Below are positions 25,748-35,028 of a stretch of DNA of 64,000 nt, one piece after another. Source of the DNA: Pirellulaceae bacterium (GTDB lineage: Bacteria; Planctomycetota; Planctomycetia; Pirellulales; Pirellulaceae). Both the position numbers and the translations under genes were made by a program. The stretch's first letter is position 1. Every line of letters begins with the position of its first letter. Below the pieces are notes generated by a model that was not told the origin of the DNA, made no database searches, and saw only the letters and a list, made by a program, of their open reading frames with translations. The stretch lies in the NCBI GenBank assembly GCA_022446825.1, contig JAKVBY010000034.1, forward strand, positions 25,363-89,362, read 5' to 3'.

Positions 25748-26595
25748 AACAATGACTCGGGTCCTGTCGTCAATTGAAATGCACTAGAAACAAACTGCCT
25801 GATTAGTAGAGACACCAAAACAGGATGCGTTTTGGAAAAATCAAATAGGGCCCTTACTCGAAAGCACAAAACCACAGTCCCGCTTCATTTGTTTCGCATT
25901 TGTAGCATATCACTCCTGAAAACTAAATATTTTTCTCCGCGGGTAGGGAATATCACAGAAGGTCAGATCGACCGCAAAGATTTTCGATACCGGTCTCTTC
26001 GTGCTGTACCACAAGGTACGATCAGACGAGTGGAGATCCATGCCGCAGGCAGACCAAAGCAACTCCGGAGCCACAACCAAAGCACCATTCCAACCAAAAT
26101 GATGGCGAGTTGAACTGAGACGCATAAAAGAAAGCCCCGAGGCCACTTCTGCTCTGCCAGCGAAAATCCCGAAGTCGCCAATGTTGATTTGGCTTCTGTG
26201 TTGGTCGGCAGTAAATTGGCAAGCATCATCAATACATCTTGCACGGGAATTGCAAAACTTGTCACGCGTTTAGCGCTTGCAACGTTAATACCGACGGTCT
26301 TAGTGTCTCCGTGAACAAGAAGACCATCAACAATACGAAATGCTCAGGCCAAAAATCACTACCTTGCCTCAAGCTCACCAAAGAATCGCTAAAATCTGAG
26401 TCCCACTAAAGCCATGCACTTCGTGAGTCCTGTTTAGTAACACTTAGAGGAGCAACACCACCGCAAATTCACTGAGCTGTAGCCATGCAAAAACTTAAAG
26501 TAATTTAGCCCAACGCGCTCTTGCGAAGCGCCATGAAGTCCACGAACATAGTGCGATAAAGTACTGGGAATTACGATTGATCTTGAGCATGGAAC
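25748..26595. other. gap holding a decayed protease fragment
   Basis: Nothing else is seen except the remnant listed separately at about 26148-26335. It ends at the ATG of the secreted hydrolase. Confidence 0.5.
26148..26335 (-). pseudogene. C-terminal remnant of an S1C protease paralogue
   Basis: The reverse-strand frame reads GINVASAKRVTSFAIP, VQDVLMMLANLLPTN and FSLAEQ. It matches the C-terminus of the intact gene at 31728-32852 (GINIASADRVASFAIP, AQEVLMILGDLLPKN, FSLTEQ), and the DNA is visibly related (shared CAGGAATTGCAAAACTTG-like run). Upstream the catalytic loop is degraded (VDGLLVHGD instead of SDCGGPLVNLDG) and no protease or PDZ domain follows. The stop after the FSLAEQ end is lost. 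It is best read as a decayed duplicate. Confidence 0.75.
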
Positions 26596-28878: not shown

Positions 28879-28994
28879 GCCTGGCACACCGGACACCATA
28901 AAGGCGATCTAGAACTCATAACTTGCGTTTCGGCGATACTGGCTACCACACTTGTCATTTTTGTAGGCAACTTTATCTTATCGCAGGTCCCACC

Positions 28995-31700
28995 ATGCAA
29001 CGCGTCACGAATAACAGATACTCTTTTCTATGGGCCGCTCTAATAACTCTGATTTTGTCTACAACAGGGAGTGCTGATCCGGTTGAGCAGCGCGTTGCGG
29101 TCGTCGTTCCAGCGCGAGAAGTACCACGCATTACATATGGTGTGAATCAACTCAAAAATGCTTTACAAGAAGTGGGCCTGGCAATCGCGGAACCGTCACT
29201 TCCCAGGAATCCCCAGTCTGAAACGACCATTACCGTGGGTGTCATTGACAATGATCCTACGACGGCACTCGGCGCCACCCCCCCCGCTCGCGCGGAGTCG
29301 TTCACGATCTTATCCCCACGTCCAAAACAGTATGTGATTACTGGCAGGGACGAATCCGGAGCGATGTATGGCTGCCTAGAATTGGGAGAACGAATCAGAC
29401 GCGGTAAGAAACTACCCGCATTGCCCAACCCGATATCTCAAGGGCCCGCCTTGCGGCTTCGTCAGAGCTGTGTCTACATGTGCCTGCCAAAAGGCTCACG
29501 AGATGGTGGATTCTACGATTTCCTCTGGACGCCAGAAAATTTCCCTTGGTTCTACGATAAAGAGCATTGGCAAGAACACTTAGACCTGTTGGCAAGATCG
29601 CGTTTCAACGCCTTAGTGTTATGGGCAGGTCACCCTTTCACTTCGATACTACAACTGCCGAACTACCCCGAGGCGCAAGAACTCAGTGACGCAGACCTGC
29701 AACGAAATATCGAAATGTTCCGCTGGGTGACACAAGAAGCAGAGCGTCGAGGCATCTGGACCGTGGTCCATTTCTACAACATCCGCATCTCGCATAGTCT
29801 AGCCAAGGCTCACAACATCAGTATCGGGCAATCAAAACCGACCGAGCTGAACCGGAACTATACGCGCCACTGCGTCAGTGAATTCATCCGCAACTATCCG
29901 CATGTCGGCCTAATGGTTTGTTTGGGCGAATACCTATTGAGTGAATACGATGCGGAATGGCTAGCTGACGTCATCATTGACGGAGTGAAAGACAGCCTCC
30001 GTCCCGGTCAGGAAGAACCACCCCTGATCATACGCTCGCACGATTGCCCCATGAGTGAGGTACTGGAACGGGCATCCTATTCGAATCTATTCACGACCTC
30101 CAAATACTCAAGTGAAGCATTGATCTCCCATGTGGTCGGCGGTGGGCCGGGAAACAAAGACATTATGAGCTGGAAGTTCAGTAAGGATCTTTCAGAACAA
30201 AATCCACACATTTTGGAATTGATGTTTATCAGCAACCTGCAGCCTTGCCAGTACGGATCTCCTCGGTTTGCCCGTGGAGCGTTAAGCTCCTGTGTGGACA
30301 TCGGGAGCCAAGGAGTGCTCCATTTCCCCTTGGCCTACCTCAACTGGCCGTATACGACGCACGCCACATCGTCCCCTATTCGTCAGATCGATCGTGACTG
30401 GATGTGGTACGAGAGTTGGGGGCGAGCGGCTTGGAACCCTCATGTTCCGGATGACGAGGCGCGTTCCTACTGGCACTGGCGCCTCGGTGAAATCTACGGA
30501 GTTCCACCAAACGCCTCTGCCGTCATTCTCGAGGCCAGCGAGGCCGTTGCCGAAGTCATGCCCCATGTGACACGCGCGTTAAGTAACCAACCTTGGAATA
30601 TTCAGACGCACATGCTGGGGCAGACGATGGAACAAACACTGACAATTTCGGGGCGGTGGTATGCTCCACTCGGTGAAACGCTCATCCAATACGCACAAAA
30701 AGAACTAGCGGGCGCAGAGCATCAAGGGGAGACCCCGCTCGAAGCAGCGGAGCAAATCCAATCGAACGCCGCCACCGCCCTCCTCAAAGCCAAACAAACG
30801 CGTTCGCTGGTGACTCGCAATCAGGAAGCTTACGACCTTTGGGTGAAGGATATTAAAATCACCCAGCTAGTCGGTGACTTTTACGCACAAAAGGCGCGCG
30901 CGGCTATCTCCACACATATCTATTTTCAGACCCGGGACAACGCCCAGTTGGAGTCCATCGAACAGGATCTGGAAAGTTCGTTGAGCACCTATCGACAGCT
31001 CGCAGAGTTCACGGACGGTTTGTACGCCACCGTCGGCGGATGGGATGCGGCTCAGCAGATCCCGTTCCGCCCACCAATCACGCATTGGAAACAGGCACTA
31101 CCTCGCTTCGAACAAGAACTAAAAAGGTTTCAAACGAATGCCCGCGATCTGCGTCGAGACCCTTTAACATCAGGACAAATAAAGCCTTATTCCAGTGTGG
31201 ACGTCGAGATCCACACCGATGGCTGTGAGTCATTCGAGATGAAACTGAATGCCCGTCCCTACACGACGAACACTCCCTGGGTTCACCAACTACTACCGGA
31301 ATTACGAGGCTTGACTGGCATACGCTTTTCCAGCGAGGCCGCCGAAGCGAACGAACTTTCCATCGAGTTCGAGTTGAAAGAACCCGCTCGTGTCTTTGTC
31401 GGTTTTGCTGGCCAACCTGAATACCGGGTCCCAGGCCGCTGGGCAAAGCCAACTGAGGACTGGAAATTGTACGCGAACGAATCTGCCTATTTATACAAAT
31501 GGCACGAGTACTATATGGCTCGATGTGATGTCTACGTCAAAGAATTTCCCGCGGGGCGCTCGGTCCTGTCATTCGGCCAAGGAGCGTTTACTGTCCTGGG
31601 CTGCGCTGCCATGGACAGCCCACTGGTCCCCCGCGCACATCGCGTCGTACAACCTGGATTGTGGTTTAGTCACAACCAAAGCGGTGAAGAGAAGAACTGA
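28995..31700 (+). CDS. secreted putative glycoside hydrolase, GH20/GH67-like architecture
   Basis: About 901 residues from the ATG at 28995, giving a signal peptide (about 1-28). An N-terminal alpha/beta domain (about 30-155, with ESFTILSPRPKQYVITGRDESGAMYG) resembles the GH20/GH67 accessory domain. A TIM-barrel-like region follows (LRQSCVYMCLPKGSRD, HLDLLARSRFNALVLWAGHP), then a helical region and a beta-rich C-terminus. Exact family and substrate are unknown. The longer start at 28923 adds a stretch without signal character. It is 116 bases after the secreted hydrolase on the same strand. Confidence 0.68.
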   Translation: MQRVTNNRYSFLWAALITLILSTTGSADPVEQRVAVVVPAREVPRITYGVNQLKNALQEVGLAIAEPSLPRNPQSETTITVGVIDNDPTTALGATPPARAESFTILSPRPKQYVITGRDESGAMYGCLELGERIRRGKKLPALPNPISQGPALRLRQSCVYMCLPKGSRDGGFYDFLWTPENFPWFYDKEHWQEHLDLLARSRFNALVLWAGHPFTSILQLPNYPEAQELSDADLQRNIEMFRWVTQEAERRGIWTVVHFYNIRISHSLAKAHNISIGQSKPTELNRNYTRHCVSEFIRNYPHVGLMVCLGEYLLSEYDAEWLADVIIDGVKDSLRPGQEEPPLIIRSHDCPMSEVLERASYSNLFTTSKYSSEALISHVVGGGPGNKDIMSWKFSKDLSEQNPHILELMFISNLQPCQYGSPRFARGALSSCVDIGSQGVLHFPLAYLNWPYTTHATSSPIRQIDRDWMWYESWGRAAWNPHVPDDEARSYWHWRLGEIYGVPPNASAVILEASEAVAEVMPHVTRALSNQPWNIQTHMLGQTMEQTLTISGRWYAPLGETLIQYAQKELAGAEHQGETPLEAAEQIQSNAATALLKAKQTRSLVTRNQEAYDLWVKDIKITQLVGDFYAQKARAAISTHIYFQTRDNAQLESIEQDLESSLSTYRQLAEFTDGLYATVGGWDAAQQIPFRPPITHWKQALPRFEQELKRFQTNARDLRRDPLTSGQIKPYSSVDVEIHTDGCESFEMKLNARPYTTNTPWVHQLLPELRGLTGIRFSSEAAEANELSIEFELKEPARVFVGFAGQPEYRVPGRWAKPTEDWKLYANESAYLYKWHEYYMARCDVYVKEFPAGRSVLSFGQGAFTVLGCAAMDSPLVPRAHRVVQPGLWFSHNQSGEEKN

Positions 31701-31727: not shown

Positions 31728-32852
31728 TCATTGCTCTGTCAGCGAAAAGCTTGGTGCAACCGGGGTTGATACCGCTTCGATGCTGCTGGGAATTTCGATG
31801 TTCTTGGGCAGTAGATCGCCCAGTATCATCAACACTTCCTGCGCAGGAATTGCAAAACTTGCCACGCGGTCAGCGCTCGCAATGTTAATACCGATGGCCT
31901 TGCCGTCAAGATTGACAAGAGGACCACCACAATCACTGGGACGCAAAACAGAATCATGCTGCAGTGCTCGGGGAAATCCTCCGCTACGGTCACTTACCTG
32001 CCGCCCCAAAGTACGCTGCATTTCCGCGCGACGTTGTTCGGCCGTGCGCAATGTTGTAAGTCGAGTCATCACCTTGAGGTCCTGGCCATTGCGGCGCACG
32101 ACAAGGTGGACCACATCTCCAGAACGCATTTCCCGAATTTTGGCAATGAGCCGATCGACTTTGCTTACTGCTTCGCCATTAAAGCTGACAACCATGTCGC
32201 CCACTCCTACCCCGGCTTTTTCGGCAGCTCCACCAGCAACAACCTCGGTGACCTTGGCGCCTGCGGGACTCTCACGCAACAAGATTCCCAGTACACCCCG
32301 CGAGCCGTTAATTCGATGTGGTGATGCGCTCATCACTCCAATCGCAACAGGACGGTCCGAAGTCCCAGAGGTGGCCAGCCAACTTCCCAGATCCGGTACT
32401 TGAAAATCCCAACGAACCACTTGAAGCTCCGTAACCTCCACCTTCAACAAGGCGATGTCATAGTCGCTGCGGACGCCAATAACCTGCGCTGGAATGGTCG
32501 ACCCACCAGATAATTCGCAAGTAATCGTTCCTTTAAGTTCACTGGCTTTCGTGACAATATAGCCGCGTTGATCGACGACTGCTCCCAGAGATTTATGGAC
32601 GCCATCACAGTAAACCCGCACCGTACTTTTACTGGAAGTCTTCACAACTGCACGAAAGGCATTCGTAACGGTCGCATTACTTCTTTCATTTCTGCGTGCC
32701 AAACGCTGCAACCAAGCCGGAATCGTCCTCGTTGTTGGAGACACCGAATCCAAGTCCTTTAACCTCGCGTTGTCTTCCGCAGAGGTTAGCCCGGCCCCAC
32801 CGATCAGAGTAATTATCAAGAACACTAAACGACGCACACTCATTTCCTTCAT
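31728..32852 (-). CDS. S1C-type pseudoprotease with PDZ inserted in the protease domain
   Basis: The protein has 374 residues from ATG 32852 (GAGAAG 5 bases upstream). A signal peptide (1-24) precedes a trypsin-like fold. The catalytic His position is Ser104 (YIVTKASEL), Asp132 remains (SDYDIALLKV) and the nucleophile Ser is Cys308 (PSDCGGPLV). A PDZ domain (about 184-265) lies between the Asp and the Cys, not after the protease domain as in HtrA. It cannot be a normal serine protease; a chaperone, peptide-binding or regulatory role is possible. The active protease gene lies just upstream on the same strand. Confidence 0.82.
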   Translation of the reverse strand: MKEMSVRRLVFLIITLIGGAGLTSAEDNARLKDLDSVSPTTRTIPAWLQRLARRNERSNATVTNAFRAVVKTSSKSTVRVYCDGVHKSLGAVVDQRGYIVTKASELKGTITCELSGGSTIPAQVIGVRSDYDIALLKVEVTELQVVRWDFQVPDLGSWLATSGTSDRPVAIGVMSASPHRINGSRGVLGILLRESPAGAKVTEVVAGGAAEKAGVGVGDMVVSFNGEAVSKVDRLIAKIREMRSGDVVHLVVRRNGQDLKVMTRLTTLRTAEQRRAEMQRTLGRQVSDRSGGFPRALQHDSVLRPSDCGGPLVNLDGKAIGINIASADRVASFAIPAQEVLMILGDLLPKNIEIPSSIEAVSTPVAPSFSLTEQ

Positions 32853-32931
32853 AATGCTTCTCGATGTCAAGTTGTCATTCTCAGAACTTTTTTCCTCAGC
32901 TGCCATCTGACGCTCAAAAACAATCATCTCG

Positions 32932-34011
32932 CTACGATCCCAGATCGCCAATTATGACGCCGAGATCGATCAATGCCTGATTGCGTCGAAGTCGAACGGT
33001 TACTTCATCACCCGGGTGGGTCTTTTCAACGAGTTGTTTTAGTGAATCAAAATCGCTGATGCGATGACTGCCAAACCGAACAACCACATCACCGACTTTG
33101 ATGCCCGCATCCGCCGCAGGGGTTCCAGGAAACACCTGGACAACAATTGCATTCTCCGCCTGAGCATCCCCTCGAATTCCGATGAAAGGGCTCACTCCTG
33201 GCAAATTCCCCCAAACATTACCATCAACTAAGCGTTCCCAAGTATTCAGGAAATTGTCAACAGGAACGTGCAAATTATTGGCAAGTGAATTACCAATGCG
33301 GCTATGAATTCCGACGACGCAGCCATTCATATCAAACAGCGGACCACCGGAATCACCACCGACAAGCTTGCAATCGGTTTGAATATATTCATCTTGATTT
33401 TCCAGAACACGACCGACTCGTACCACCGCACCACGGTCAGCCTGAAAACCTCCTGGATGACCAAGACTCATCAGCCATTGCCCAACTTCGACAGATTCTG
33501 AGCGTCCCATCTTCGCGACACCCCAATGCCGCGCTGCTTCGACGGTCTCGGAGGCATTTACTTTGATCAGGCCAGCATCTCGGTTTCGATTCAAACCAAG
33601 CGTCGTGCCGCGGACTTTCGCACCGTCAAAGAAAGTAATGATCGCCTCTTGATCTCTGTGGCTGGCAACATGCGCAGCCGTCAAGAGATATCCGCTTTCC
33701 GAAATAATGACACCGCTACCATGCACCACTCCAACCTGTACTGCCACCGTGCTACGTTGCAACGAATTCGCCAGCTGCTGCTGATGCGATTCCATTGCCT
33801 TGAGATCCTCGACGCTGGTGGGGACTCCCCCTGCAAAAATACTCTGCAAGGCCGTCTCTGTAACACGCAGATCATCTTGGTCTACAGCAGTCGCTCGGAC
33901 GGCACCAACCAACAAGAGAACAATCGACAAGGCGACGAGCTTAGTAGAACGCGCATGACCACCACAAAAAATCTTGCCGTAACCTCGCGACATATTGTGT
34001 TTAAGATTCAT
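32932..34011 (-). CDS. S1C/HtrA-type serine protease with PDZ domain
   Basis: The protein has about 359 residues from ATG 34011. After a signal segment (about 25-43) it has catalytic His114 (TAAHVAS), Asp145 (NRDAGLI) and Ser221 (GGDSGGPL), then a PDZ domain (about 270-355, ADAGIKVGDVVVRFG). All catalytic residues are present. It is followed on the same strand by the pseudoprotease 80 bases on, so the pair probably acts together in the envelope. An alternative ATG at 33993 exists. It is divergent from an SDR gene. Confidence 0.9.
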   Translation of the reverse strand: MNLKHNMSRGYGKIFCGGHARSTKLVALSIVLLLVGAVRATAVDQDDLRVTETALQSIFAGGVPTSVEDLKAMESHQQQLANSLQRSTVAVQVGVVHGSGVIISESGYLLTAAHVASHRDQEAIITFFDGAKVRGTTLGLNRNRDAGLIKVNASETVEAARHWGVAKMGRSESVEVGQWLMSLGHPGGFQADRGAVVRVGRVLENQDEYIQTDCKLVGGDSGGPLFDMNGCVVGIHSRIGNSLANNLHVPVDNFLNTWERLVDGNVWGNLPGVSPFIGIRGDAQAENAIVVQVFPGTPAADAGIKVGDVVVRFGSHRISDFDSLKQLVEKTHPGDEVTVRLRRNQALIDLGVIIGDLGS

Positions 34012-34170
34012 TGGCACCAAGTCCGAGTGACTTCAAAACAAACAACAGGACGTCTACTCGATCTTAGCGTATTTATCACGCGCGTTCTCGACTTTTACCT
34101 AACAAGCCTTAAGATTTGACAATCGTACCGGTTGTTTTGTTTATGGTGATGGAAAGGCTTGAAGGTCTTC

Positions 34171-35028
34171 ATGTCAAAACTTGTCTTTGGCTGCGGCTAT
34201 TTGGGGAAGCGTGTTGCTGCGCAGTGGCGGCAAGCTGGACACTCGGTCCACGTCGTCACCAGAAGTTCTGAGCGCGCTGTGGAATTGCAAACAGAGGGTT
34301 TTCATCCAATCGTCGCCGATGTTTGCCAACCCGACACGCTCACTGGCCTGCCCGAGGCGGAAACGATCCTTTATGCCGTAGGATTTGATCGCAATTCAAA
34401 CCATTCCATCGAAGAGGTCTACGTAGACGGATTCGAGAATGTACTGGCGGCAATTTCCCGTCGTACCCAACGATTGATCTATGTCAGTTCGACGGGTGTC
34501 TACGGCTACGATGACGGCTGCTGGATCGATGAAACATCTCGCTGCAATCCGACCCGTGCCGGCGGCCTGGCCTGTTTAGCAGCAGAACAACGTTTACAAC
34601 AACACCCACTCGCTGAATGCTCTATTATTCTGAGAATGGCTGGGATTTACGGGCCGAATCGCATTCCTCGTCGACAGGATATCGCCCGAGGAATCCCTTT
34701 GAATGTAGCCTCTGCCGGCTATTTGAACTTGATCCATGTGGAGGATGCGGTTCAAGTGATCCTGCGTGCGGAGGCCGCCTCCGCCACCCCGGAACTCTAC
34801 CTTGTTTCCGACGGCCAGCCCGTTTTACGGCGAGATTATTTTTGGGAGCTAGCGCGACTTTTAGGCCTGGAGAAGCCCTCTTTTGAGTCGTCACCTGCGA
34901 ATTCCAGCCGCGAGGCTCGCGCCAGCGGTAGTAAACGAATCAAGAACAATCGAATGCTTGAGAAATTAGAGATTTCACTACGGTTTCCCTCTTATCGTGA
35001 GGGACTAGCCGACGGAATCATTGGTTGA
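34171..35028 (+). CDS. NAD-dependent epimerase/dehydratase (YeeZ-like SDR)
   Basis: The 285-residue protein has the nucleotide-binding motif GCGYLGKRVA (6-15), the strand motif IYVSSTGVYGY with the Ser-Thr-Tyr part of the active site, and LNLIHVEDAVQVI. It belongs to the atypical extended SDR group that includes YeeZ; substrate is unknown. Start 34171 is chosen because GAAGG (34161-34165) lies just upstream; TTG at 34159 is also in frame. It is not clearly linked to the MBL gene that follows 100 bases on. Confidence 0.85.
   Translation: MSKLVFGCGYLGKRVAAQWRQAGHSVHVVTRSSERAVELQTEGFHPIVADVCQPDTLTGLPEAETILYAVGFDRNSNHSIEEVYVDGFENVLAAISRRTQRLIYVSSTGVYGYDDGCWIDETSRCNPTRAGGLACLAAEQRLQQHPLAECSIILRMAGIYGPNRIPRRQDIARGIPLNVASAGYLNLIHVEDAVQVILRAEAASATPELYLVSDGQPVLRRDYFWELARLLGLEKPSFESSPANSSREARASGSKRIKNNRMLEKLEISLRFPSYREGLADGIIG

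Follow-up and report, generated by a model that had tools for sequence, protein, structure and literature searches.

A catalytically degenerate HtrA-like protein with a PDZ domain inside its protease fold, encoded with an active protease in Planctomycetota, as a probable regulatory subunit

Results

Organization of the locus

The window, i.e. the whole stretch of 64,000 nucleotides that was analysed, contained a gene for a trypsin-like protein without a catalytic triad (the pseudoprotease) directly downstream of a gene for an active protease. The following features were assigned:

31728..32852, minus strand: pseudoprotease with an S1/HtrA-like fold and an internal PDZ domain; S104 at the His position, D132, and C308 at the Ser position
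32778..32852, minus strand: likely signal peptide, MKEMSVRRLVFLIITLIGGAGLTSA, judged from the sequence, an AlphaFold2 helix at residues 6-17 and a simple N-terminal scan of relatives
32541..32552, minus strand: TKAS motif, residues 101-104, with invariant K102 and with S104 replacing the catalytic His
32064..32297, minus strand: PDZ_2 domain, residues 186-263, inserted at loop L3 of barrel 2; its peptide-carboxylate loop of the xLGI type (L188-G189) is conserved
31923..31961, minus strand: motif QHDSVLRPSDCGG, residues 298-310, with H299, D300 and C308, the last replacing the catalytic Ser
32932..34020, minus strand: active partner protease with a likely signal peptide, an S1 domain with intact His-Asp-Ser (GGDSGGPL), a short L3 and a C-terminal PDZ domain
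26149..26325, minus strand: relic of a second pseudoprotease C-terminus, truncated and diverged, with 55% identity over residues 310-374

The open reading frame of the pseudoprotease extended over positions 31728-32951 on the minus strand. Translation from the ATG at 32852 gave a protein of 374 amino acids, and the alternative TTG at 32951 one of 407 amino acids; residues are numbered here from the ATG. The likely signal peptide is followed by the first part of a trypsin-like domain, the PDZ domain and then the end of the trypsin-like fold. The partner at 32932-34020 carried the motif AHV, the catalytic Asp and GGDSGGPL, and it matched the Trypsin_2 model over its full length (1-144/144), so that the intact PDZ protease expected just upstream on the same strand by an earlier, sequence-only reading was indeed present. 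The stop codon of the partner and the ATG of the pseudoprotease were separated by 79 bases, and a search of this gap revealed no terminator-like site.

An epimerase-like gene (34159-35028, plus strand) adjoined the pair in divergent orientation, and a related gene lay divergently upstream at 16 of 60 family loci; beyond it, clustering of the flanking genes of these 60 loci gave no functional clue. The gene at 28923-31700 (plus strand), which also adjoined the pair, encoded a protein of 925 amino acids that had no Pfam match at E<=0.001. Two genes on the plus strand separated the relic from the intact gene, at a distance of about 5.4 kb, which would fit the loss of a second copy. PADLOC matched the partner to RT-Protease_XI and LmuA; these were read as generic trypsin-domain matches, and membership in a defence system was rejected. 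No match was found in plasmid records.

Altered active site and position of the PDZ domain

When the pseudoprotease was aligned by profile with the active protease upstream, the catalytic His corresponded to S104 (in TKASE), the Asp to D132 and the Ser to C308 (in SDCGGPL), the same residues that the sequence-only reading had named. HtrA proteases (MEROPS S1C) are defined by a His-Asp-Ser triad, in place of which the pseudoprotease has S104/D132/C308. The chymotrypsin fold is kept and the active site is remodelled, with His replaced by Ser, Ser replaced by Cys, and Lys102 and Asp132 invariant.

With the intact pseudoprotease, Pfam detected PDZ_2 at residues 186-263 (E=2.6e-13), while Trypsin_2 matched only the first half (residues 90-180). 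After excision of the PDZ domain in silico the Trypsin_2 match became continuous (3-144/144). Aligned with hhalign to the S1 domain of the partner, the excised protein gave an E value of 9.3e-22 over 180 columns, and the separate halves gave weaker values of 7.8e-16 and 3.5e-10. As the Trypsin_2 match is continuous after excision and the joined protein aligns better than either half, the segments flanking the PDZ domain form one protease fold, of the trypsin-like (S1), HtrA-related type. An AlphaFold2 model calculated with 60 relatives had a mean pLDDT of 85 and a pTM of 0.77, and the pLDDT was mostly above 90 across both protease parts and the PDZ domain. A Foldseek search against the PDB gave E values of about 1e-16 to DegS, DegQ and MucD but TM scores of only about 0.28; since this alignment is sequence-ordered and the PDZ domain of these proteins sits elsewhere, the low score neither proves nor refutes the fold, which was therefore judged by PDZ excision and profile alignment.

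The model and the profile alignment showed two strands of barrel 2 before the PDZ domain (at about residues 158-161 and 170-181) and four after it. The PDZ domain is therefore located within barrel 2, and not between the barrels. The GV(M/V)S and LQHD strands flank the insertion site, which corresponds to the sensor loop L3 of HtrA proteases. Thus, the PDZ domain does lie inside the protease fold and between the Asp and Cys positions, as had been proposed, but the second barrel does not come wholly after it. The PDZ domain of S1C proteases is C-terminal to the protease domain, unlike that of the pseudoprotease at residues 186-263. The internal order was found in all of 110 non-redundant relatives and is for this reason not a product of chance.

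Distribution and conservation of the family

The pseudoprotease family was present in 241 of 398 genomes and 109 of 187 genera of a class-wide sample, and among the matches listed essentially the whole domain was matched. A sample of the phylum yielded more relatives in other classes. Scanning about 85,000 species yielded 462 relatives; the best 80 of these were almost all named Planctomycetota, with a few under other names. Two of these few, public metagenome-assembled genomes titled 'Candidatus Nealsonbacteria' (L091, 9.1 Mb) and 'Akkermansia muciniphila' (L107, 7.3 Mb), contained typical planctomycete pairs; they are too large for these names and are likely misnamed.

Neither the catalytic His nor the catalytic Ser was found in any of the 110 non-redundant members. 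Lys102 and Asp132 were present in all 110, Asp300 in 109, Arg329 in 108, His299 in 106, and Ser104 and Cys308 in 105 each; position 104 was never His. Position 326 was basic (R326) in most members and is Ser in the pseudoprotease of the window. The peptide loop of the PDZ domain (L188/G189) was kept in nearly all. Homologues with a normal triad and a terminal PDZ domain, which would have spoken against the sequence-only reading, were searched for and not found; all 110 members keep the altered order and lack both His and Ser. Conservation across the 110 members ruled out that the changes to Cys and Ser had arisen by chance or through sequencing errors.

The presence of Cys308, His299, Asp300, Lys102 and Asp132 in at least 95% of the members each might suggest that the site was repurposed, with Cys308 and either His299, Asp132, Lys102 or the ARAGR motif, which is basic, forming a new catalytic, redox or metal-binding centre (cf. 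the metal site in MamO). We regard this as quite improbable. In some members Cys308 is replaced by Ile, Met or Thr (never by Ser), and since these residues are tolerated position 308 is not an essential nucleophile. In addition, the classical base is lost, and the pseudoprotease of the window deviates at the usually basic position 326.

In a tree of the protease domains the pseudoproteases formed one clade of 108 tips with a support of 1.0. The median pairwise distance was 1.52 for the pseudoprotease as against 1.43 for the active partner, and the distances of the two proteins were correlated (r=0.74, uncorrected for species phylogeny). As its divergence resembles that of the active partner, the constraint on the pseudoprotease is not relaxed. 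It is scarcely credible, then, that the gene is a decaying, functionless duplicate of the neighbouring protease. The loss of the triad would fit such an origin, and the window does contain a fragment of this gene, at 26149-26325, that has truly decayed, but family-wide conservation, monophyly and the partner-like divergence all stand against it, as do the open reading frames, which were kept in nearly all copies among the matches listed.

Pairing with the active protease

The 110 loci were gathered by searches that made no use of the partner. An active S1-PDZ protease was nevertheless found at every one of them, directly upstream on the same strand at 89 loci and fused N-terminally at 21. The same 4-base spacing of the open reading frames recurred at 13 of the 89 loci with an upstream partner. 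All separate partners that could be aligned (88 of 88) had an intact His-Asp-Ser triad. The inactive S1-fold protein is thus genetically linked or fused to an active HtrA at 110 of 110 loci, a linkage of the MamO type. When the tables for the two proteins in the same 398 genomes were compared by eye, the pseudoprotease occurred in 241, the partner in 236 and both in 235, so that the pairing is near-obligate. One protein stood alone in 7 genomes: a weak pseudoprotease match occurred without a partner in G153, G173, G190, G199, G218 and G392, and a partner alone in G295. The L3 loop of the partner was uniformly short: in 82 of 85 matched partners, 9-10 residues separated the GRV strand from the TD motif, compared with about 17 residues in an ordinary HtrA from the genome of the window.

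The genome of the window also carried a second, fused copy of 723 amino acids (L002, contig C35, 226-2397). It consisted of an intact protease with a PDZ domain, an acidic linker and then KASE, the Asp, a PDZ domain and QCGSPL. In eleven fusions the active half had no detected PDZ domain and ran straight into the pseudoprotease; the inserted PDZ domain is consequently the only one in these proteins. Four fusions of about 920-1060 amino acids from elsewhere in the phylum (L129, L130, L131 and L144) had two to four PDZ domains inserted at this same site, two in L129 and L144 and four in L131, and L129 has Met in place of Cys308. Another three fusions, L101 (5179-7521), L098 and L112, had a C-terminal extension of about 210-240 amino acids past the pseudoprotease, which was coiled-coil-like in L101. 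The AlphaFold2 model of a natural fusion had a pTM of 0.57; it did not fix how the two protease domains are placed with respect to each other, and no interface was predicted.

These data must also be weighed with respect to a substrate adaptor or holdase, in which the PDZ domain and the blocked cleft would bind unfolded or tagged proteins and pass them to the active protease, with no allostery through L3. The peptide loop L188/G189 conserved in nearly all members and the additional PDZ domains that distant members have at the same site are in accordance with such a role, and pairing and fusions suit tethering equally well. Tethering, however, does not require a complete conserved S1 fold, invariant residues where the active site used to be, or a PDZ domain placed at L3, and we therefore consider an adaptor unlikely.

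Discussion

The pseudoprotease is probably a dead, dedicated regulatory subunit of the secreted HtrA-type protease encoded at 32932-34020, the two genes being a module of the Planctomycetota; complex formation, sensing and the direction of control are what we infer. The sequence-only reading had favoured a specialised role in binding or regulation over a broken protease, and it gains support from the conservation in over half of the genera sampled from the class, the loss of the triad, the single clade, the rate of divergence and the linkage at 110 of 110 loci. Direct binding and regulation are predictions from sequence, and genomic pairing falls short of proof of physical contact.

In HtrA proteases L3 senses a ligand bound to the PDZ domain or the active site and then touches loop LD of the adjacent protomer, which orders the active site there (PMC11252331). 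Signalling from L3 to LD is documented for DegP and HtrA2 (PMC6172425). HTRA1 monomers are inactive, as no L3 of a neighbour reaches in; an HTRA1 mutant was functionally corrected by a compensatory subunit in trans, and mixed trimers included the dead S328A subunit (PMC11252331). A working precedent is MamO, an inactive HtrA-like protein that is required for proteolysis by MamE (PMC4794232).

The pseudoprotease might accordingly oligomerize with the active subunit, and its internal PDZ domain would capture exposed C-termini of client or stress-signal peptides. Movement of its L3 would then control, and most likely activate, the neighbouring catalytic subunit, which has a short L3 of its own. 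The simplest reading is a split machine in which the dead subunit senses and the live subunit cuts, the sign of control being presumed. We propose only tentatively that the pair is a two-subunit HtrA, in which the catalytic subunit has a reduced L3 and the PDZ-type L3 of the dead subunit supplies the activating contact in trans. Control by the pseudoprotease could instead consist of inhibition or substrate tethering. Since most active partners carry their own PDZ domain, the inserted one is not the sole sensor in most pairs.

A particular form of inhibition would be a decoy that silences the active enzyme in inactive mixed oligomers until a ligand binds. The pairing data fit this as well, and a dead subunit can poison an oligomer. 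Nevertheless it appears very improbable, because the two described examples of inactive HtrA-type subunits considered here, MamO and the HTRA1 mixed trimers, promote activity (PMC4794232, PMC11252331).

No published description of this architecture or of the pair was found in literature searches, which covered open-licence papers only, so that absence is not proof. A survey of microbial PDZ proteins reported an expansion of PDZ domains in planctomycetes, and the passages considered made no mention of this architecture or pair (PMC6411480). The known signalling from PDZ to L3 to LD in HtrA proteases links identical subunits, whereas here the sensor, the PDZ domain, has apparently been placed in the L3 loop of a dedicated dead subunit. 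Envelope protein quality control has been little studied in this phylum. If the proposed mechanism is true, sensing and catalysis would be naturally separated in the pair, which would offer a model of allosteric activation in trans that is open to direct testing. The mechanism, if true, would also explain a widespread family that matches generic trypsin-like and PDZ models only. If the split reading holds, a PDZ-gated protease switch would exist in over half of the genera sampled from one bacterial class.

Comparison with known systems

Human azurocidin and haptoglobin are S1-fold proteins that lack catalytic residues and act as binding proteins, and in azurocidin the His is likewise changed to Ser. 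Unlike the pseudoprotease they have no PDZ domain, and their lineage and role are unrelated. PDZ domains embedded within or between catalytic parts occur in Tsp/CtpB (S41), S2P and tricorn proteases, but these differ from the pseudoprotease in fold and are catalytically active.

DegS, DegP, DegQ and HTRA1 also combine the S1 fold with a PDZ domain, and in both sequence and Foldseek searches the pseudoprotease matched this group best. In contrast, their His-Asp-Ser triad is intact, their PDZ domain follows the complete protease domain, and their L3 is a plain loop. All curated NCBIfam HtrA/Deg models remained below their cut-offs; the best was degP_htrA_DO with 96 bits (cut-off 416), and the partner was also below with 142 bits. 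The pseudoprotease is thus related to HtrA in fold but lacks two features that define the protease family, the triad and the terminal PDZ domain.

In the MamO/MamE system a degenerate trypsin-fold protein with an altered triad and a Thr as predicted nucleophile is needed together with an active HtrA for proteolysis (PMC4794232). MamO differs in that His and Asp of the triad are kept (H116, D149), in its TauE domain and in the binding of metal at a surface di-histidine site, and the passages considered describe no PDZ domain inside its protease fold (PMC4794232). The pseudoprotease scored 36.4 bits with the NCBIfam model for MamO, which has a cut-off of 800. Among the known systems the pseudoprotease may work most like MamO, yet it is not a MamO.
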